DNA of 64,000 nucleotides from Teredinibacter turnerae (GTDB taxonomy: Bacteria; Pseudomonadota; Gammaproteobacteria; Pseudomonadales; Cellvibrionaceae), in assembly GCF_037935975.1 (NCBI RefSeq), contig NZ_CP149817.1, positions 1,240,001-1,304,000 of the forward strand. The letters run 5' to 3'. The notes under the pieces were generated by a model that did not search any database, was not told the origin of the DNA, and saw only the letters and a list, made by a program, of their open reading frames with translations. Made by a program: the position numbers and the translations under genes. How positions within the stretch are numbered: the first letter of the stretch is position 1; the number at the start of each line of letters is the position of its first letter. This document shows positions 49,047 to 57,401 of this stretch, piece by piece.

Positions 49047-50084
49047 TCATTTTTTAGACAGCAGAATACGGTTGCCCTGATGCTCTGCAGTGAGGTTAAA
49101 GCTCAGCTCCAGCACTTCGAGCATGGCGTCCACTTCTCCGGCTTTAAAGTACCCGCCAACAGGCAGCTCTGCGAGGGTAGGATCTTCGATAATGATGTGG
49201 ATATCTGTGTAGCGAGATATTTCTCGCACAGCGTCCACCAGCGGAGTGGAATCGAAGGCAAGCATCCCTTGCTGCCATGAAAGCTGACGGTCTATCTCTT
49301 GCTGGCTCGGGTTGGTGTGGTGTTGAGTGGTGGTGCCAAAGCGCAATTTTTCACCTGCTGAAACGGCGACAATCTGCTGCGCGCTACGGTCGGTTAGCTC
49401 GCTTTGCGTGCGAGGTTTATCGTCATGTCGAGCTGGCTCAAGTACACTGCTTGCTGCATCCACCTTAACCTTGCCTTCCGTCACGACCAGATCAATACCA
49501 GACGACTGAACGCGAACATTAAATGCGGTGCCGACTGCCGTGATTGAGCCGCGGTTGGTATAGACCACAAATGGGCGCTTCGGATCTTTAGCTACCTCAA
49601 AATTAGCTTCGCCTTCCTGCAAATGGATAGCGCGTTCGTGTGCCGAGAAATCTACAACAACATTCGAGCGTGTATTGAGTTTTATGCGCGAACCATCGGG
49701 TAGCAGGTATTGCTCTATTTCACCGGTTGCCGTTTGGTATTCTGCGTGGACGTCGGGCACACTTGCCGTGCGCAAATGGAAAGTGAATAACGCAATAGCC
49801 AAAAGCACAGCGGCCGCTGCAGACCACACTATTGGCATTTGTTTTTGTGACGGGCGCGCTGCCTGGCGGGTGACGGCTTCGCTTTCGGTCGTGAGACCAT
49901 CCAGCTCCTGCCAGACATCCGCCAAATCTAAAAAACTGCGGCGGTGAGCCTGACTTTGCGCGAGCCAGCTCTCCAACTCATCGCGTTCGCTCGCGCTGAG
50001 AGGCTTTTGATCCATCTTGATCACCCACGCTGCCGCTTCCTGCTCTATGTGTTCGCGGCTTTTAAAGTGTCGAATCTGATTCAT
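49047..50084 (-). CDS. fecR: FecR-type anti-sigma/sensor protein
   Basis: 345 aa from ATG 50084 (MNQIRHFKSREHIEQEAAAW). An N-terminal DUF4880 domain binds the sigma factor. One membrane helix (IVWSAAAAVLLAIALFTF, near 100) is followed by a periplasmic FecR domain (EYQTATGEIEQYLLPDGSRI, HLQEGEANFEVA) and a C-terminal STN-like part (LPVGGYFKAGEVDAMLEVLE). It relays the receptor signal to FecI. It overlaps fecI by 23 bp, and its stop overlaps an ATG at 49050 (ATGA) that opens the long receptor frame. Confidence 0.9.
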   Translation of the reverse strand: MNQIRHFKSREHIEQEAAAWVIKMDQKPLSASERDELESWLAQSQAHRRSFLDLADVWQELDGLTTESEAVTRQAARPSQKQMPIVWSAAAAVLLAIALFTFHLRTASVPDVHAEYQTATGEIEQYLLPDGSRIKLNTRSNVVVDFSAHERAIHLQEGEANFEVAKDPKRPFVVYTNRGSITAVGTAFNVRVQSSGIDLVVTEGKVKVDAASSVLEPARHDDKPRTQSELTDRSAQQIVAVSAGEKLRFGTTTQHHTNPSQQEIDRQLSWQQGMLAFDSTPLVDAVREISRYTDIHIIIEDPTLAELPVGGYFKAGEVDAMLEVLELSFNLTAEHQGNRILLSKK

Positions 50085-50703
50085 AACATGTGTCTGGGTG
50101 ATTGGCTGCCCGCGAGGTGTTCGAAGGTGCGTTACGGGACACGCGATGCATTTCTCCGTGGCCTTGTTTGCGCAGGTGCTTGCTACAGGCAATAAGCCCC
50201 CGTGCCAAGTGAGTGTCAACCGTACTCAAGGATATTTTCAGGGCTGCTGCAATGTCGCTATTGCTGCGACCTTCTATTTTTTTCATGATAAATACGCGCC
50301 GACACTGCGCAGGCAAGGCGTTCACTGCCTGGCAAAAATGTTCGTAGCGCTGTTGCTGTTCGATTACGTCATCAAGACTGACGCTCTGCATCAGGTTCTC
50401 CTCCTGTGCGAGTGTGAGCGATTCGCCTTGACGTTGATGAGCGTAGGCTCGCTGGTTGAGCGATAGGTTGCGTGCGACTTTGTACACAAACGCGCGCGGA
50501 TGGCGAATATTTTCAGCACCGTATTCGCGTTCCACTAAGCGCAAGTAAAGATCTTGTATTACATCTTCAACGTCCTGTTCGCTGGTGAAAAAAGAACTGA
50601 CGTAATGGCGAATGGCTTTCATATTTTCGATAAATACGCCACTCATGGTTACTGCAGTCTGTTTTCCGCCCGCTGCGTGATATTCCTGCTCCGATACCGA
50701 CAT
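50062..50703 (-). CDS. fecI: FecI-type ECF RNA polymerase sigma factor
   Basis: 213 aa from ATG 50703, with GGAG 8 nt upstream. Region 2 (EQDVEDVIQDLYLRLVER, HPRAFVYKVARNLSLN) and region 4 (LPAQCRRVFIMKKIEGRSNS, then DIAAALKISLSTVDTHLARG) match FecI-like ECF factors. It should activate the receptor gene when FecR is signalled. The C-terminal 35 residues are basic and unusual (HRVSRNAPSNTSRAANH). Confidence 0.9.
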   Translation of the reverse strand: MSVSEQEYHAAGGKQTAVTMSGVFIENMKAIRHYVSSFFTSEQDVEDVIQDLYLRLVEREYGAENIRHPRAFVYKVARNLSLNQRAYAHQRQGESLTLAQEENLMQSVSLDDVIEQQQRYEHFCQAVNALPAQCRRVFIMKKIEGRSNSDIAAALKISLSTVDTHLARGLIACSKHLRKQGHGEMHRVSRNAPSNTSRAANHPDTCYESDSTL

Positions 50704-50831
50704 GAGGAAAACTCCGAGGCGAAGTGTGCCGGCCACAGTGGTGTCGCACCTGGCGAGCCGGGCACTGTAGCGTCGTTTAATGATTTTCTACAATTCGACG
50801 ACAATACCCAGCTTAGATTGCAGATTTGTGA

Positions 50832-51731
50832 CTAATTTAAGGCCTTGTCTTTACGCAAGCGCTCCTGCATCAACTCGATGAACGCGCGCACTTTGTGAGA
50901 GGAGAGCCGGTCTTCTCTGTGAACGATGTGGATAGGCAATGGCTGTGAACAAAATGGATCAAGAATACATTTGAGCCGCCCATCGGCCAGATAGTCCGCG
51001 ACCTGGTAGGAAATGACGCGAGTGATACCCAAGCCGGCCGCAGCAGCATCTATCGCAGCCTGGTTTGTGGTGACCTGCAGCCGCGGAGTGATGCGCAACG
51101 ACAGATTTTTACCCTCGCAGCGAAAATGCCAGTTTTGGGTGAAGTTGTTGGAATTGGAGCTGATCAGCGTGTGGTTTTTCAGGTCGTCTGGATTTTGCGG
51201 GATGCCTTCCGCCTTTAGGTAAGCCGGCGCAGCGACAAGTATCAGGCTGACATTTCCCACGTGGCGCGCGCGCATGCTGGAATCGGCGAGCTCGCCAATG
51301 CGGATTCCCACATCGAACCCTTCTTCTAACAAGTTCACAACCCGGTCGAGAAAGACGGCGTCGACCGATGTATGACGGTAGCGCTTTAAATACTCAACCA
51401 CCCCGGGAAGCACGTACTTTTGCCCGAACAGCACGGGTGCGGTAATGCTCAAACGGCCCCGCGGCTCGCTGTTAACCCCCTGAGCTGACTCGTTGGCGAG
51501 TTCTACTTCACGCAGGATGCGGTGCGCATCGTCGTAGTAGTGCACCCCTGCATCTGTTGGGCGCACATGTCGGGTGGTACGGTGCAGCAGCTTTACACCC
51601 AGTCTGGATTCCAGCGTTGCTATTGCCCGTGTAACCGCGGGAGGCGAGAGTCGGAGCTGACGGCTTGCTGCGGCAAACCCTTGCTCGTCCACAACAGCCA
51701 CAAAGACTTGCATGAGATGTAGTTGGTCCAT
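50832..51731 (-). CDS. LysR-family regulator, divergent from the bufferin-type cluster
   Basis: 299 aa from ATG 51731 (MDQLHLMQVFVAVVDEQGF); the frame extends upstream to 51860 without support. The winged helix-turn-helix is FAAASRQLRLSPPAVTRAIA and the effector domain belongs to the CrgA-like subgroup (GIRIGELADSSMRARHVG). The 140-bp region before the CMD gene is shared, so it is likely to control that gene, and perhaps the whole downstream cluster. Its effector is unknown. Confidence 0.9.
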   Translation of the reverse strand: MDQLHLMQVFVAVVDEQGFAAASRQLRLSPPAVTRAIATLESRLGVKLLHRTTRHVRPTDAGVHYYDDAHRILREVELANESAQGVNSEPRGRLSITAPVLFGQKYVLPGVVEYLKRYRHTSVDAVFLDRVVNLLEEGFDVGIRIGELADSSMRARHVGNVSLILVAAPAYLKAEGIPQNPDDLKNHTLISSNSNNFTQNWHFRCEGKNLSLRITPRLQVTTNQAAIDAAAAGLGITRVISYQVADYLADGRLKCILDPFCSQPLPIHIVHREDRLSSHKVRAFIELMQERLRKDKALN

Positions 51732-51871
51732 AGTTAATCGATTATTCCATTTTGCGTAATAGTCTATTGTGCTAAATGGGTATTCTTTAATCAAGCGATA
51801 CGGTAGATACTTTCTCCCACTTGAGGAGCACTGCTCCGAAGCAACGACCGACATCGTCAAAGGAGAAAGTC

Positions 51872-52417
51872 ATGAGTCGTATCAACGTAGTAAAAAACGA
51901 CATCGCCAACGTTGAGCAGGCGGCGTTATTTGAAGCAATAAATTCAAAATTGGGTGTGGTTCCCAATGTCATGCGTGTCATCGCAAATTCACCATCGGCG
52001 CTGCGTGCCTTTCTGGGGCTGCACGCAATTGCGGAAGAAGGCGAGCTCGAGCTAAAAACCCGCGAGCGCATTGCGCTGGGGGTGGCGGAGCAAAATGCCT
52101 GTGAATATTGCGTTTCCGCGCACACCGCCATCGGCCGCAAAGTGGGCCTGTCCAGCGCAGAAATTGAAGCCAACCGCGCTGGTGGCAGCCAGGATGCGAA
52201 AGCAGCTGAAGCTGTAAAGTTTGCCCGTTCAGTAGCGAAAAATACCGGCGAAGTCACCACTGCGGAGCTTATGGCTATCCGCGAAGCAGGCTTTAGCGAC
52301 GCAGAAATTATCGAAATCATCACGCACGTAGCGCTGAACCTGTTTACCAACATGATTGGTAAAGCCAGCCGAGTGGAAATTGATTTCCCAAAAGTTCAAC
52401 TCCTGGGTGCAGCGTAA
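51872..52417 (+). CDS. AhpD-like carboxymuconolactone decarboxylase family protein
   Basis: 181 aa from ATG 51872, with AGGAG 7 nt upstream. The redox motif EQNACEYCVSAHTAIG has the ExxxCxxCxxxH arrangement of AhpD-type peroxidase proteins, a reducible cysteine pair. It is a small cytoplasmic helical protein. Probably involved in peroxide or thiol defence. It is the first gene of the cluster, divergent from the LysR gene and 64 bp upstream of the YHS gene. Confidence 0.88.
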   Translation: MSRINVVKNDIANVEQAALFEAINSKLGVVPNVMRVIANSPSALRAFLGLHAIAEEGELELKTRERIALGVAEQNACEYCVSAHTAIGRKVGLSSAEIEANRAGGSQDAKAAEAVKFARSVAKNTGEVTTAELMAIREAGFSDAEIIEIITHVALNLFTNMIGKASRVEIDFPKVQLLGAA

Positions 52418-52481
52418 TTTTTTCGCATCCAATGGAATTGTTTTATCTCTACTAATCCTCTCAAACAAAAGGAACTCTGTT

Positions 52482-52961
52482 ATGAAATATTCAATGTTCG
52501 TTCGCGCGCTCGCAGTCAGCGGAGCGCTATTGCTCAGTTCGGTAAGCTTTGCATCGGCTGTAAACACTGGTGTCAATGACGTGGCTATTCACGGTTACGA
52601 TCCCGTTGCCTACTTCACTAAAGACAAAGCAGTGAAAGGCAAAGAAAAATATACCGCAATTTATAACGGTGCGATATACCGGTTCGCCAGTGAAGAAAAT
52701 CGAGACCTGTTTAAAGCGAATACCGATAAGTATGCGCCGCAATTTGGTGGCTACTGCGCGATGGGTGTTGCGCTGGATAAAAAGCTGGACGTAGACCCAG
52801 ATGCATTCTACATAGCCGATGGCAAACTGTATCTCAACCTGAACAAAACTGTTCAGCAAAAGTGGCTGGAAGACGTGCCTGGACATTTAAAAACGGCATC
52901 CCGCAAATGGTCCGGTATTCAGGATTTATCAGTGGCAGATGCAAACGCTGAAGAAGAGTAA
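52482..52961 (+). CDS. Periplasmic YHS-domain protein
   Basis: 159 aa from ATG 52482. A signal peptide (MKYSMFVRALAVSGALLLSS, cleavage near FASA) precedes a YHS-type domain: AIHGYDPVAYFTKDKAVKGK and FGGYCAMGVALDKKLDVDPD. YHS domains occur in copper and other metal proteins. The single cysteine and the aspartates could contribute metal ligands, but this is not shown. The genes on both sides suggest metal or oxidative stress. Confidence 0.85.
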   Translation: MKYSMFVRALAVSGALLLSSVSFASAVNTGVNDVAIHGYDPVAYFTKDKAVKGKEKYTAIYNGAIYRFASEENRDLFKANTDKYAPQFGGYCAMGVALDKKLDVDPDAFYIADGKLYLNLNKTVQQKWLEDVPGHLKTASRKWSGIQDLSVADANAEEE

Positions 52962-53004
52962 CTACTACCAACGCGTGCAGGATTGCTATCTGCAATTGAG
53001 CGAT

Positions 53005-53036
53005 CTCTGCGGGGTAAACAAGAAAACTCCGCAGAG
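53005..53036 (+). promoter_or_regulatory. Hairpin before the bufferin-type gene
   Basis: CTCTGCGG (53005-53012) pairs with CCGCAGAG (53029-53036) across a 16-nt loop, 28 nt before the ATG of the DUF2282 gene. There is no T run, so it is more likely an mRNA-processing or stabilising structure than a terminator. Confidence 0.5.
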
Positions 53037-53064
53037 AAAGTATTAAATATTTAGGAGAAAAACG

Positions 53065-53352
53065 ATGAATTACAAATCAACTATTGCGGCTGCGGCTGTC
53101 ATCTTGGCTGCTACCTCCGGTGCGGTATCACCCGCTATGGCGGCGGGTAAAGAGAAATGCTATGGCATTGCTGCGGCAGGCCAGAATGACTGCGGCAATC
53201 TAGCAGGCACACACTCGTGCGCGGGCCAATCCACCGTCGATAACGACCCCGGCGAATGGAAATTAGTCGCGAAGGGCACCTGCAGCAATTTGGGCGGCAT
53301 GTTAAAAGCTGAAGCCAAGCAACGTTATCAGCAACAGCAGGAAGACGCATAG
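53065..53352 (+). CDS. bufA: Bufferin-type RiPP precursor (DUF2282)
   Basis: 95 aa. A signal peptide ([20 protein letters not shown], cleavage near PAMA at residue 26) precedes a mature part with four cysteines at 32, 43, 52 and 73 ([24 protein letters not shown]), the DUF2282 pattern. In the published bufferin system, MNIO enzymes convert cysteines in such precursors, and the peptide sequesters copper in the periplasm. The equivalent Haemophilus Hvf and Legionella Gig loci respond to metals. AGGAG lies 7 nt before the ATG. Function is therefore inferred from family and context. Confidence 0.88.
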
Positions 53353-53364
53353 GGAGTAGTCGCT

Positions 53365-54264
53365 ATGCCACAAGCCAATCCCTTTGCAAGCCGATCGACG
53401 CCTGTCCCGAAAGTGGGCGTCGGTTTGCGTCACCCTCACTACCGCGAGGCTCTGACAGGAGACTGGAATCTCGATTTCATCGAAGTACATACGGAAAATT
53501 TTTTTGCTGAAGGTGGTTTGACACGCGTTTTTTTGGAAGATATTCGCAGCAAATTTTCGGTGAGTTTTCACGGTACTGCGATGGGGCTCGGCTCGGCTGT
53601 AGGAATATCGACCAAATATCTACAGCGACTGAAAGCGCTTGTTGACGAGTATCAGCCGTTGTTTGTTTCTGACCACCTGTGCTTCGCCTGGGGGGGTATG
53701 AAGGGGAACCAATCGCATGCAGGCGATTTGTTGCCTTTGCCTTTTAACGAAGAGACCTTGTCAGTTTTGATCGACAATGTACGGCGCGTGCAGGATATGC
53801 TTGGGCGTCAATTGCTCGTGGAAAATATTGTCAGTTATATCAATTTAGATAACAACACCATAAGTGAGGCTGAATTTATAACCGCATTGGTGGAGCGTGC
53901 TGAATGTGGATTGTTAGTAGATTTAAACAATATTTTAGTCAATGCGCGAAACCGGAAAGAGCATGATCCGATCAGATTCGCGCGCAACTGGTTGCGCAAT
54001 ATTCCGGCGAATGCGGTGGTTGAGTTGCATCTCGCAGGCTACACACCGCCAGTAGATGGCGGGTTGATTATCGATGATCACAGCCAGCCAATAAACGATG
54101 AGTGCTGGTCGCTATATAAGGATGCTATGGAACTCAACCAGAATGCGGCCACGCTCGTTGAGTGGGATAACGATTTACCGGCCTGGCACACGCTGGTAGC
54201 CGAGGCGGACAAGGCGCGACTGTATCAGCGCACAGAACCAAAACGCATAGAAGCAAGCACTTAG
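53365..54264 (+). CDS. bufB: DUF692 MNIO-family enzyme (BufB-like)
   Basis: 299 aa, 12 bp after the precursor gene. Family features are GVGLRHPHYREAL, VSFHGTAMGLGS, SDHLCFAWGG, LLVENIVSYI, LLVDLNNILVN, ELHLAGYT and LVEWDNDLPAW; the His, Glu, Asp and Asn residues of these segments line the multi-iron site of MNIO enzymes. It is expected to modify cysteines of the DUF2282 peptide. Relatives usually have DTHG where this protein reads IIDDHSQP, so that ligand is kept as an Asp-His pair. The stop lies in the first of four 15-bp tandem repeats. Confidence 0.92.
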   Translation: MPQANPFASRSTPVPKVGVGLRHPHYREALTGDWNLDFIEVHTENFFAEGGLTRVFLEDIRSKFSVSFHGTAMGLGSAVGISTKYLQRLKALVDEYQPLFVSDHLCFAWGGMKGNQSHAGDLLPLPFNEETLSVLIDNVRRVQDMLGRQLLVENIVSYINLDNNTISEAEFITALVERAECGLLVDLNNILVNARNRKEHDPIRFARNWLRNIPANAVVELHLAGYTPPVDGGLIIDDHSQPINDECWSLYKDAMELNQNAATLVEWDNDLPAWHTLVAEADKARLYQRTEPKRIEAST

Positions 54265-54318
54265 AATCAAAGTACCTAGAACCAATGTACCTAGAATCAA
54301 TGTACCTAGAATCAAAGC
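54259..54318 (+). repeat. Four 15-bp tandem repeats after bufB
   Basis: Units at 54259-54273, 54274-54288, 54289-54303 and 54304-54318 (consensus ACCTAGAATCAATGT) differ at 1-3 positions. Each contains TAGAA/CTAG-type core sequence, and the first includes the bufB stop codon. The spacing to the next gene is 122 bp. Confidence 0.85.
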
Positions 54319-54385
54319 GACATCGTTGAAACGCAGCAAACTTGTGAAACTTTAATAACGGATAAATCAGGCATCGAGGAATGAT

Positions 54386-55189
54386 ATGAACAGACCACTT
54401 AGCCGAATTATAAACTTTCAAGCGGAGGTGATGAAGAGAATTTTGTCCGCTCCAACGCCGTCGCTTGATGGCGATAGCGCTGAAAAAGGTTGGCAGGTGT
54501 ACCGCCAGAATCGCCTTTTTACTGCAGCGCGCTCGCTTTCGATCTCCTATCCGGTCGTTAAAAAAATGTTAGGCCCTGACGCGATGAAAGTGCTAGCCAA
54601 ACGTTTGCTGGACAGCAACGGCCCGGCGACAGGCGATTGGGCTGAATGGGGAGGCACACTAGCACAGCTTTTGAGGGACAGTGAACTCATGGAGCCGCTT
54701 CCGTTTCTCGCGGACATGGCGGAGCTCGAATGGTGTGTTCATTTGATAAAGCGTGCGGGCATTGATATCGGGCATCCTAAATGTATTGATTTATTGCACT
54801 CTCAAGCGCTAGACACTGTGCGTTTTACTTTTCAGAAGCAAGGTCTGATTTTGGGTAGTAGTGAGTTTCCCGTCGTTGCTTTGTGGCAGGCTCATCGCCC
54901 CTGGGATGAAGACTTTATTCCAGACGATATCGTGCTAGCCGATATTTTCTCTGCCGGAGTTTTGCAGTGCCATTATCAAATTCATCAGCATGGCTATATC
55001 GCGCACGTGAAGGAAATTACGCTAAGTGAATACCGCTGGATGGAAGATGTGGCTAAGGGTTTTGATGTTGCCCGCCTTATTGATCGGCATCTCACATTCG
55101 ACATCGTTGGTTGGTTGCAAAAGGCGTCAGAATTGGATGGCCTTATCTATCTTGAAAAAATTTGTGAAGGAGGAAAATGTAATGATTAA
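54386..55189 (+). CDS. bufC: DUF2063 protein (BufC/HvfC-like)
   Basis: 267 aa. The N-terminal region resembles the HvfC/BufC N-terminal domain: QVYRQNRLFTAARSLSISYP, then GPDAMKVLAKRLL and MAELEWCVHLI. DUF2063 proteins partner DUF692 enzymes, probably as peptide-recognition subunits. It ends with GGKCND and overlaps the DoxX start by 8 bp. Confidence 0.88.
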   Translation: MNRPLSRIINFQAEVMKRILSAPTPSLDGDSAEKGWQVYRQNRLFTAARSLSISYPVVKKMLGPDAMKVLAKRLLDSNGPATGDWAEWGGTLAQLLRDSELMEPLPFLADMAELEWCVHLIKRAGIDIGHPKCIDLLHSQALDTVRFTFQKQGLILGSSEFPVVALWQAHRPWDEDFIPDDIVLADIFSAGVLQCHYQIHQHGYIAHVKEITLSEYRWMEDVAKGFDVARLIDRHLTFDIVGWLQKASELDGLIYLEKICEGGKCND

Positions 55190-55661
55190 TTCTCGAGTAT
55201 CCTACGGCGCTGCATACCAATGGATTTTTAGCAAAGCCAGTGTGCTTCATCACCTCGCGAGTCTGGCGGGTCGGCTTTATGTAGCGAATGTCTTCTTTAG
55301 TGCGGGCCTGGTAAAAATCCGCGATTGGGAAACTACGTTGTTTTTGTTTGAAGAAGAATATCAGGTGCCGCTTTTATCACCCGTCCTCGGTGCTTACCTG
55401 GGTACATTTGGGGAGCTGTTCTTTCCCATATTGCTATTAATTGGCTTGGGTACAAGATTTGCTGCGTCGGGACTTTTCGTTGTTAATGTGGTGGCTGTAC
55501 TGAGTCTTGCGGAGATCGCTCCAGCAGCTTATTACTTGCACGTGATTTGGGGTCTCGTACTCGGACATCTGGTCATTTACGGCGGTGGATGGTTTAGCGC
55601 CGATGCGTACTTGAAAATTGAATGCCCCAAACTCATCCGGCGTCAAACAGCACTTTATTAG
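55182..55661 (+). CDS. DoxX-family inner-membrane protein
   Basis: 159 aa from ATG 55182, which overlaps the bufC stop and has AGGAGG upstream. About four membrane helices are present (LYVANVFFSAGLVKIRDW, YLGTFGELFFPILLLIGLG, LFVVNVVAVLSL). DoxX members often close bufferin or Hvf operons, where they have been suggested to carry electrons; this is inferred from position. Followed 16 bp later by the split-barrel gene. Confidence 0.88.
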   Translation: MINSRVSYGAAYQWIFSKASVLHHLASLAGRLYVANVFFSAGLVKIRDWETTLFLFEEEYQVPLLSPVLGAYLGTFGELFFPILLLIGLGTRFAASGLFVVNVVAVLSLAEIAPAAYYLHVIWGLVLGHLVIYGGGWFSADAYLKIECPKLIRRQTALY

Positions 55662-55677
55662 TGCGTGGAGGCAAATT

Positions 55678-56595
55678 ATGCCGCACAAGTATTCGGAGAT
55701 TGTTTTTACCGAGACAGTAAAACGACTGCAGTCCAAATACGGTTCGCGTGAAGGTTATGCCGGCATGGCGAATGGCCCTGATTACAACGATGTTCTGGGG
55801 CCAAGGGAAGCTGCGTTTATCTCTGCTCGCAATAGCTGCTATATGGCGAGTGTGACTGAGACGGGGTGGCCTTATGTGCAACACAAGGGGGGGCCGGACG
55901 GATTTATGCGTGTTCTTGATGAGCGCACCTTGGGGTTTGTCGATTTCTCTGGCAATCGTCAGTATGTTACCGCTGGAAATGTCATCAATAATAATCGACT
56001 GTCTTTATTTTTTATGGATTACCCCCATCGCATGCGACTAAAGCTAATGGGCGTTATTTCGTTACTTGATGACGAAGATTCTCGGGCTCGGACGCTTTAT
56101 GAACTCGACGGCTATCGGGCCGCTGTTGAGCGGGCCTACGTTATTCATGTTGAGGGTGTTGATTGGAATTGTCCTCAACATATTACGCCGCGTTACTCTG
56201 AACACGAATTGGAGCCAGTAGTCAATGCATTGTTGGCGAAGAGATTACAAGACGCTCTCAATTCGCAACAATACCCACAAGAACTTGGCACAGGCACATT
56301 GCCGCTGGTGGTTACTGGAATGCGCCAGCTGAAGGGTGGTATGCGCGCTTATATGTTTAGTCATATTGATGGGCTGGCTCTACCTGATATATCGCCGGGA
56401 GCACAACTCAGGGTGCCTGTGCAATTACCTCAGGGAAGCTTGGTGGTGCAAAACTATAAGATTGCTACGGTGGGCGAGAACAACGAATACTACGAGGTAA
56501 ATATGCGCGAACTCGCGTCGGATAGCGGTTGTACGCAAGCAATATTCAGCCATTTCAGTCTCGGGCTGAGGGTGAATTGTGATTTTGTGGTTTAG
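55678..56595 (+). CDS. FMN-binding split-barrel protein (pyridoxamine 5'-phosphate oxidase-like)
   Basis: 305 aa from ATG 55678, with GGAGG 7 nt upstream. The motif FISARNSCYMASVTETGWPY and the segment YVTAGNVINNNRLSLFFMDY followed by RMRLKLMGVISL are those of the PNPOx-like split-barrel fold. Family members oxidise or reduce small molecules with FMN. It follows the DoxX gene closely, so it is probably the last gene of this operon. This extra member is not a standard bufferin gene. Confidence 0.82.
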   Translation: MPHKYSEIVFTETVKRLQSKYGSREGYAGMANGPDYNDVLGPREAAFISARNSCYMASVTETGWPYVQHKGGPDGFMRVLDERTLGFVDFSGNRQYVTAGNVINNNRLSLFFMDYPHRMRLKLMGVISLLDDEDSRARTLYELDGYRAAVERAYVIHVEGVDWNCPQHITPRYSEHELEPVVNALLAKRLQDALNSQQYPQELGTGTLPLVVTGMRQLKGGMRAYMFSHIDGLALPDISPGAQLRVPVQLPQGSLVVQNYKIATVGENNEYYEVNMRELASDSGCTQAIFSHFSLGLRVNCDFVV

Positions 56596-56851: not shown

Positions 56852-57340
56852 ATGAATTTTGATTTGTCAGTTGAAGATGTGCGCGAGCCGCTGCCCCCGT
56901 TTACTCGCGATGCGGCGATTAAAAAAATTCGTCTCGCGGAAGATGCGTGGAACCTGAAGAACCCTGAGAAAATTGCAACTGCCTATAGCCTGGACAGTCG
57001 CTGGAGAAACCGTGATGTATTTCTGCAAGGCCGCGACGATATTGTGACCTTTCTGCAAGGTAAGTGGCGGAAAGAGTTGGATTATCGGCTGATAAAAGAG
57101 TTGTGGTCGTTTAGTGAAAATCGTATCGCTGTTCGCTATGTCTACGAATGGCATGATGAGAATGGTCAGTGGTTTCGATCCCACGGCAATGAAAACTGGG
57201 AGTTCAATGAACGGGGATTAATGGCGCAACGTCATGCAAGTATTAACGATGTAGCTATTGCTGAAAGTGATCGAAAATTTCATTGGCCACTGGGGCGACG
57301 CCCTGATGACCATCCGGAACTATCTGAGTTGGGGCTGTAG
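56852..57340 (+). CDS. DUF1348 NTF2-like protein
   Basis: 162 aa of a small cone-shaped fold. The family signature is [18 protein letters not shown], then [20 protein letters not shown] and [20 protein letters not shown]. It is probably cytoplasmic. No catalytic function can be assigned. A 256-bp gap separates it from the preceding gene, so it may have its own promoter; a terminator follows. Confidence 0.88.
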
Positions 57341-57376: not shown

Positions 57377-57401
57377 GCAGCGCGTTTCGCGCTGCTTTTT
57401 T
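57377..57401 (+). terminator. Rho-independent terminator after the DUF1348 gene
   Basis: GCAGCGCG/CGCGCTGC with a TTT loop and a T6 run. Confidence 0.9.

Follow-up and report, generated by a model that had tools for sequence, protein, structure and literature searches.

Bufferins are among the largest groups of ribosomally synthesized and post-translationally modified peptides (RiPPs) matured by MNIO enzymes, and the questions of which accessory proteins they need and when they are made are mostly open. Both questions are raised by a 64,000-nt stretch of the Teredinibacter turnerae genome (G000:C1:1240001-1304000, from a single contig of 5.35 Mb), here called the window, in which a bufferin-type operon shares a strand with genes for an AhpD-like protein, a YHS protein, a split-barrel protein and a DUF1348 protein and faces a divergent gene for a LysR-type regulator. 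Why should such a peptide be encoded in this company? The probable, though by no means secure, answer is that the locus is a composite in which a copper-buffering RiPP operon, one making a modified and secreted copper-binding peptide, is tied to oxidant defence. The evidence for this reading lies in gene content, in the recurrence and clade structure of related loci, in a sensor cysteine pair found in the regulators of relatives, and in the constraint under which the genes have evolved.

The bufferin core

At the centre of the locus, all on the + strand, are genes for BufA, a DUF2282 bufferin precursor (53065-53352; 87.2 bits in Pfam against a cut-off of 22.4), a BufB-like MNIO (DUF692) enzyme (53365-54264; PF05114, 294.5 against 25), a DUF2063 partner of the PME type 1 kind (54386-55189; PF09836, 38.3 against 27.2), and a DoxX membrane protein (55182-55661; PF07681, 54.6 against 23.6). 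This is the standard Buf1 set, in the same order as in the Buf1 bufferins and captophorins (BufABC-DoxX; GIG). BufA has four cysteines and an N-terminus that is signal-like by inspection, and the MNIO protein carries the conserved His, Asp and Glu positions typical of its family. The best NCBIfam match of the MNIO protein is the BufB equivalog NF050167, whose threshold is narrowly missed (301.1 against 310), so the claim made here is limited to "bufferin-type" and does not extend to a proven BufB. Work on Buf1 and captophorins describes thiooxazoles on the central cysteines and copper binding in the periplasm (PMC12452194, PMC12668002), and for the bufferins of C. vibrioides an absorbance near 305 nm is reported (PMC12452194). 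An initial annotation of this DNA had proposed a bufferin-type MNIO operon accompanied by CMD, YHS, LysR and other genes, and all of the genes that it named are present, their starts now corrected, each past its Pfam cut-off.

A bufferin subtype marked by a YHS gene

Directly upstream of bufA lies the gene for the YHS protein (52482-52961, + strand), a clear member of NF041384 (156.6 bits against 70) with a signal-like N-terminus by eye. Of the 144 family genomes examined, 46 contain DUF2282, at 59 places covered by 58 regions (L073 holds two). YHS directly precedes BufA in 14 of these 58 loci, each of which also has the MNIO, DUF2063 and DoxX genes, and in none of the other 44 Buf1 loci. The BufA proteins follow the same division, scoring 107-200 bits against the window BufA in the YHS loci and 41-70 in the others. 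A second, named set was made from the best 80 of 576 relatives of the subtype BufA alignment, a biased choice whose proportions are not population frequencies; with four duplicates dropped (L092, L112, L113 and L114), YHS precedes BufA in 37 of its 76 loci, from taxa that include Alteromonas, Colwellia, Psychromonas, Endozoicomonas, Thalassolituus and Methylophaga. Many loci are cut by contig ends. A thioredoxin (Trx) gene precedes bufA in 5 of the 14 family and 22 of the 37 named YHS loci, and in no locus of either set that lacks YHS.

In a tree of MNIO proteins with 126 rows, all 51 YHS loci that have an MNIO gene fall inside a set of 55 rows with a branch support (SH-aLRT) of 99; the trees are quick ones, made with no mixture model and accompanied by long-branch warnings, and an independent-pairs test on the MNIO tree found too few pairs. 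The arrangement YHS-(Trx)-BufA-MNIO-DUF2063-DoxX is thus a bufferin subtype, a minority within its class. The T. turnerae genome also carries an ordinary Buf1 operon without YHS (C1:4236182; L014, L034) and a third MNIO gene (C1:12435; L003), so the YHS form is an addition to ordinary Buf1 and not a replacement of it.

Regulators beside the subtype

The initial annotation placed the operon under LysR rather than sigma-factor control. A divergent LysR gene is indeed present in the window, but the commonest regulator beside the YHS-bufferin subtype is an RclR-like protein of the AraC type. YHS-bufferin loci supplied the seed sequences for the profiles of AraC, Trx, LysR, CMD, PPOX and DUF1348, which were then run on all loci with fixed limits; the glutathione S-transferase (GST) and glutaredoxin profiles were built from one or two sequences. 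An AraC gene scoring above 200 bits lies within 9 kb in 10 of 14 family and 24 of 37 named YHS loci, as compared with 0 of 44 family and 1 of 39 named loci without YHS. For the two AraC proteins that were scanned, the best NCBIfam match is RclR (NF040475; 110.8 and 125.9 bits).

In Escherichia coli, RclR is activated when Cys21 and Cys89 are oxidised to a disulfide, forming a switch that responds to hypochlorous acid (HOCl), and RclA, which RclR controls, reduces Cu(II) (PMC7464077, a review); RclA is likewise annotated as a Cu(II) reductase in L172. Among 36 distinct AraC sequences scoring above 300 bits, 32 of them encoded within 2 kb of YHS, Cys21 and Cys89 in the numbering of E. coli RclR (L172) are each kept in 35 (39/40 before duplicates were dropped), and the exception is not next to YHS. 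The remaining four cysteines of E. coli RclR are kept in 0, 0, 11 and 0 of the 36. A search of the 144 family genomes with the RclR-like alignment gave 14 genes above 340 bits. All but one of them adjoin YHS, ten inside a YHS-bufferin locus and the other three where bufferin is absent (G006:570108, G051 and G040).

Outside bufferin loci, an RclR-like gene was seen opposite YHS alone (L198, L245) or opposite a DoxX-YHS pair (L206), which is perhaps an ancestral or reduced form of the system. Weaker AraC relatives (267-281 bits) lie, in seven of eight loci viewed (L238-L244, not L237), near genes that by eye encode Ohr-like proteins and a chloroperoxidase-like hydrolase. This neighbourhood is another sign of the link between this AraC group and oxidant defence.

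A second module with its own LysR gene

The remaining genes of the locus tell a different story. The LysR gene (50832-51731, - strand; Pfam LysR_substrate and HTH_1) diverges from the operon, and across the gap from it lies the gene for a carboxymuconolactone decarboxylase-like (CMD) protein (51872-52417, + strand; Pfam CMD 54.9 bits), which is AhpD-like, has a CEYC motif and passes the peroxidase-related family TIGR01926 (86.6 against 81.8). Beyond DoxX come genes for a PPOX (FMN split-barrel) protein (55678-56595, + strand; PNPOx_N 41.9 against 28.1) and a SnoaL-like DUF1348 protein (56852-57340, + strand; PF07080 217.4 against 22.1), the last gene of the presumed operon. These four belong to a module, LysR//CMD-PPOX-(GST)-DUF1348, that occurs whole or in part without any bufferin (L178, L179, L214, L215, L218 and L230) and beside YHS-bufferin in several orders (L054/L224, L079, L104, L144 and L236). 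At L103 DUF1348 stands before YHS and PPOX after DoxX, and a locus without YHS, L099, nonetheless holds PPOX and DUF1348. One stretch with neither bufferin nor YHS (L213; G006:C1:3321600-3340900) has an RclR-like gene of 411 bits beside LysR, GST and DUF1348 genes, linking the two modules in another way.

How close is the association? Seven family genomes have both YHS-bufferin and CMD (E<=1e-20), and in six (G000, G136, G027, G028, G112 and G114) the two are within 10 kb of each other, for which the chance is about 0.4% per genome by our own estimate (20 kb of 5 Mb). In the seventh, G118, the CMD (32% identity) lies about 290 kb from YHS-bufferin. Of the 14 family YHS-bufferin loci, 5 have DUF1348 at a distance of 9 kb or less. 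The four of these loci that lack an AraC gene (L035, L043, L054 and L055/L236) are the very ones with a divergent LysR-CMD pair of the window's type within 10 kb, and L079 and L080 have an AraC gene plus a more distant CMD. In the window the two modules are interleaved, and the LysR gene stands where relatives have an RclR-like gene.

This alters the suggestion that the extra genes extend the bufferin system. It holds for YHS, and CMD is usually near, but CMD, PPOX, DUF1348 and LysR are not a general bufferin extension because their module occurs without any bufferin. Could a one-off insertion have merged two unrelated units, an electrophile-detoxification module with LysR and a bufferin cassette, with no functional meaning? 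Each module does occur alone, and the order CMD-[YHS..DoxX]-PPOX is seen only in G000 and its congener G136. Yet the modules also adjoin in the other orders listed above, DUF1348 and PPOX bracket the YHS-DoxX stretch at L103, and the arrangement has been kept across two species at 89% DNA identity. A merger without meaning is, on this evidence, distinctly improbable.

Sequence constraint

The congener (G136; L042, L043) keeps the whole arrangement, with 89.4% DNA identity over 6.8 kb. Pairwise ratios of nonsynonymous to synonymous substitution (dN/dS) between the two are 0.016 for LysR, 0.018 for YHS, 0.034 for DoxX, 0.039 for CMD, 0.045 for BufA, 0.050 for DUF1348, 0.093 for DUF2063, 0.187 for MNIO and 0.218 for PPOX. 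With low ratios in most genes and the arrangement kept, the locus is not a chance string of open reading frames (ORFs).

A competing account is that this is an ordinary copper (or gold) bufferin operon, whose YHS, CMD, PPOX and LysR neighbours are incidental or responsive to metals only. It is consistent with the standard Buf1 core, with the solitary occurrence of both YHS and the LysR module elsewhere, and with the response to gold and copper shown by the GIG operons of Legionella and Cupriavidus, which have the same core (PMC5413113, PMC10304878). What tells against it is the adjacency of YHS to BufA in every subtype locus of the family and in the 37 named loci while the gene order around them changes, the nearness of CMD in six of seven genomes, and the strong constraint on YHS, CMD and LysR. 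Mere neighbourhood is thus an unlikely explanation, if far from a negligible one, and metal stays a rival or joint signal because the GIG operons respond to it.

The high ratio of the PPOX gene hides two unlike parts. Residues 1-185, the split barrel, have a dN/dS of 0.077 and 95.7% identity to G136, as against 0.360 and 68.3% for residues 186-305. Residues 205-263 match 7ylr (a reductase deposited as "Ferredoxin"; E 0.0072), and longer forms exist in relatives: a 525-aa protein at L054/L224, made up by eye of PPOX, reductase and 2Fe-2S domains, and a 434-aa form at L103. Given the higher ratio in the C-terminal part, its reductase match and these longer forms, sequence comparison indicates that the product described earlier simply as an FMN split-barrel protein consists of a PPOX domain (about 1-185) and a truncated, decaying stub of a ferredoxin-reductase-type flavin domain; the earlier description also stopped short of the DUF1348 gene that follows.

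The YHS protein

What does the YHS protein contribute? It had been taken for a second periplasmic metal-binding protein; in that role it would give copper to the bufferin or take copper from it. The protein looks secreted and always lies beside BufA in the subtype, and Cu(I) could bind transiently to a single thiolate. Even so, the proposal fits poorly with an alignment of 26 Buf-linked members, in which C92 is the single invariant cysteine, set in an invariant G90-x-C92, and no histidine or methionine is invariant. A selenoprotein of the NF041384 family is listed with the motif GxU in a 2026 review (PMC13188914), selenocysteine there occupying the cysteine site, and the fit of G90-x-C92 to this site argues for thiol/selenol chemistry rather than another metal site. 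The pairing of YHS with an RclR-like gene where there is no bufferin likewise tells against a metal carrier. A metal-carrier role is accordingly unlikely, and the residue pattern favours a redox (thiol/selenol) role, with copper on the single thiolate a possibility.

On a different proposal, the MNIO enzyme would act on YHS as well as on BufA, modifying the one cysteine of YHS. The secreted look of the protein, its place next to the MNIO gene set and the small-residue context of the invariant cysteine would suit this. However, 73 of the 87 places in the family with a YHS of this kind are outside bufferin loci (the other 14 being Buf-linked), some of them with the AraC gene alone, which makes the proposal very hard to credit. 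Non-bufferin contexts were viewed for 20 of the 73, plus L245. On a profile of Buf-linked YHS proteins, the Buf-linked members score 170-292 and most other family members seen 119-162. One YHS match in a scan of the phylum has an in-frame TGA.

Structural searches add little. The AlphaFold model of the YHS protein is weak (mean pLDDT, a per-residue confidence score, 64.7), and a PDB fold search with it gave nothing at E<=0.001, the top hits from this weak model being toluene monooxygenase chains at E about 0.1. A PDB sequence search with YHS gave no credible match.

A proposed link between copper buffering and oxidant defence

If the composite reading is right, BufA, with its signal-like N-terminus, would be exported and would bind copper in the periplasm, its central cysteines having been oxidised, presumably by MNIO and DUF2063, to copper-binding heterocycles (thiooxazoles). 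The YHS subtype would be produced when thiols are under oxidation by reactive chlorine or bromine species or by similar electrophiles, with or without copper, such stress being perhaps the time when copper is most dangerous. YHS, Trx and DoxX might move electrons for thiol repair or for the handling of copper. The proposal of thiol-oxidising stress as the inducing condition draws on the type of regulator, on the redox partners and on two precedents, RclX and a Haemophilus influenzae cluster, described below. In the genus of the window, the YHS-DoxX cassette is flanked by the CMD and PPOX genes of the LysR-linked module, which is separate in origin elsewhere, and since it lies there, LysR probably controls both modules.

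A more specific version, which can be advanced only tentatively, is that the YHS-bufferin subtype, widespread among marine bacteria, is a defence against reactive halogens. RclR-type sensors with a cysteine pair would switch on a periplasmic kit made up of a single-thiol YHS protein, Trx, DoxX and a RiPP that traps copper. The kit would be a functional counterpart of E. coli rclABC, answering the hazard of copper combined with hypohalous acids by sequestering the metal and not by reducing it, and in the window genus it would have moved under a LysR module of the electrophile type.

Several observations weigh against linking the locus to oxidant defence in these ways. There is no RclR-like gene beside the window operon itself; the best one in the genome (G000:C1:3934401) is 2.6 Mb off and by eye lacks Cys21. 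Both AraC proteins scanned fall far below the NF040475 cut-off of 400 and are thus relatives of RclR, not orthologues, and no gene of this kind lies within 9 kb in 13 of the 37 named YHS loci (some being cut by contig ends). Only L144 of these 13 holds LysR and CMD, so an exchange of AraC for LysR is not a rule outside the family. DUF1348 is the sole module gene in 22 of the 40 contexts viewed, out of 65 places. The YHS loci form almost one clade, and their co-occurrence counts are not independent events. YHS-bufferin is also rare: of the 94 DUF2282 places in 274 genomes sampled evenly across the class, three have a YHS match at a distance of about 1 kb or less, namely the window's own, G282 and G357, and in G357 the YHS is broken and scores below the cut-off. 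The BufA signature NDC-NL-G-HSC is found in 33 of 83 loci without YHS as well. Finally, the window LysR has no cysteine conserved across the LysR proteins of the module. A redox-cysteine switch in LysR, considered as a candidate, is unsupported, the number of cysteines conserved among these proteins being zero.

The frequent presence of an RclR-like regulator beside related operons of marine bacteria hints at a role of some bufferins in oxidant defence in addition to copper control. A clade with recurrent redox partners and an oxidant-type sensor makes it testable whether bufferins protect from copper only or from copper together with thiol oxidants, and the unstudied family of YHS (seleno)proteins gains a concrete functional setting.

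Relation to known systems

The core of the operon is of a known kind; compared with Buf1 and GIG operons, the window locus or its relatives add a YHS gene, in many cases Trx, and a regulator that is RclR-like or of the LysR type. A paper on the bufferin landscape reports other conserved genes around bufferins in extremely low proportions (PMC12452194). A term search of its main text found no mention of YHS, AhpD, LysR, split barrel or carboxymuconolactone, and the YHS/Trx/RclR-like subtype is not named there. In a literature search that covered neither supplements nor most subscription papers, no paper was found joining the YHS domain with DUF2282 or with "hypochlor-".

Three systems invite comparison. 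E. coli RclR-rclABC shares with the window's relatives an AraC regulator with Cys21 and Cys89, secreted and membrane proteins, and copper handling (by RclA) under oxidant stress. It differs in that no RclA or RclB is recognised here and that the regulator in the window is LysR; a search for RclC in the ORFs of the loci examined gave no match at E<=10. In Pseudomonas aeruginosa, the AhpD-like protein RclX, under RclR, protects against HOCl and hypothiocyanous acid (PMC7950407). The common ground is a CMD-family protein with CXXC tied to oxidant defence, and in G114 an RclR-like gene adjoins the CMD gene and diverges from it, whereas the window CMD stands opposite LysR and resembles RclX at the level of the family.

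The third is a DoxX/COG3220(MNIO)/DUF2063 cluster of H. influenzae, which is induced by HOCl in a manner dependent on RpoE2 (PMC7907618) and so shares with the window MNIO-DUF2063-DoxX. It differs in its precursor family, in being controlled by an extracytoplasmic function (ECF) sigma factor, and in having no YHS among the four genes named. The precursor of that cluster is of the hvf/oxazolin, EGKCG type.

Other features of the locus

From CMD through DUF1348 the intergenic distances are 64, 103, 12 and 121 nt, an 8-nt overlap (DUF2063/DoxX), 16 and 256 nt. The region has 11 terminator-like sites, as against 6.2 expected in shuffles, and the sole intergenic one on the + strand, a hairpin with a T-run at 57377-57395 that is kept in G136, is 3' of DUF1348. 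Because the gaps are short and the terminator comes only after DUF1348, a single transcript across CMD...DUF1348 is plausible from the layout of the genes. The presumed divergent promoter would lie in the LysR-CMD intergenic region (51732-51871), which is mostly conserved in G136. A consensus promoter scan of the region gave zero + strand matches, a result that carries little weight, and an Rfam search for a known RNA element at the locus gave no match. An inverted repeat in the YHS-bufA gap (53004-53037, + strand) could form a 12-bp hairpin, possibly an element of RNA processing or stability; in G136 its stem is kept and its loop changed.

Beyond LysR lies an ECF sigma/FecR-like pair, named by eye (49047-50736, - strand), with a conserved ORF of some 1100 aa after it, in both G000 and G136. 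The pair was set aside as a regulator of the operon, since it is on the opposite strand, beyond LysR, and likewise placed in G136, though a regulatory link is conceivable. At 54259-54315 a 15-nt repeat extends past the end of the MNIO gene into the MNIO-DUF2063 gap. It differs in G136, and the C-terminus of the MNIO protein may be slipping at this repeat.

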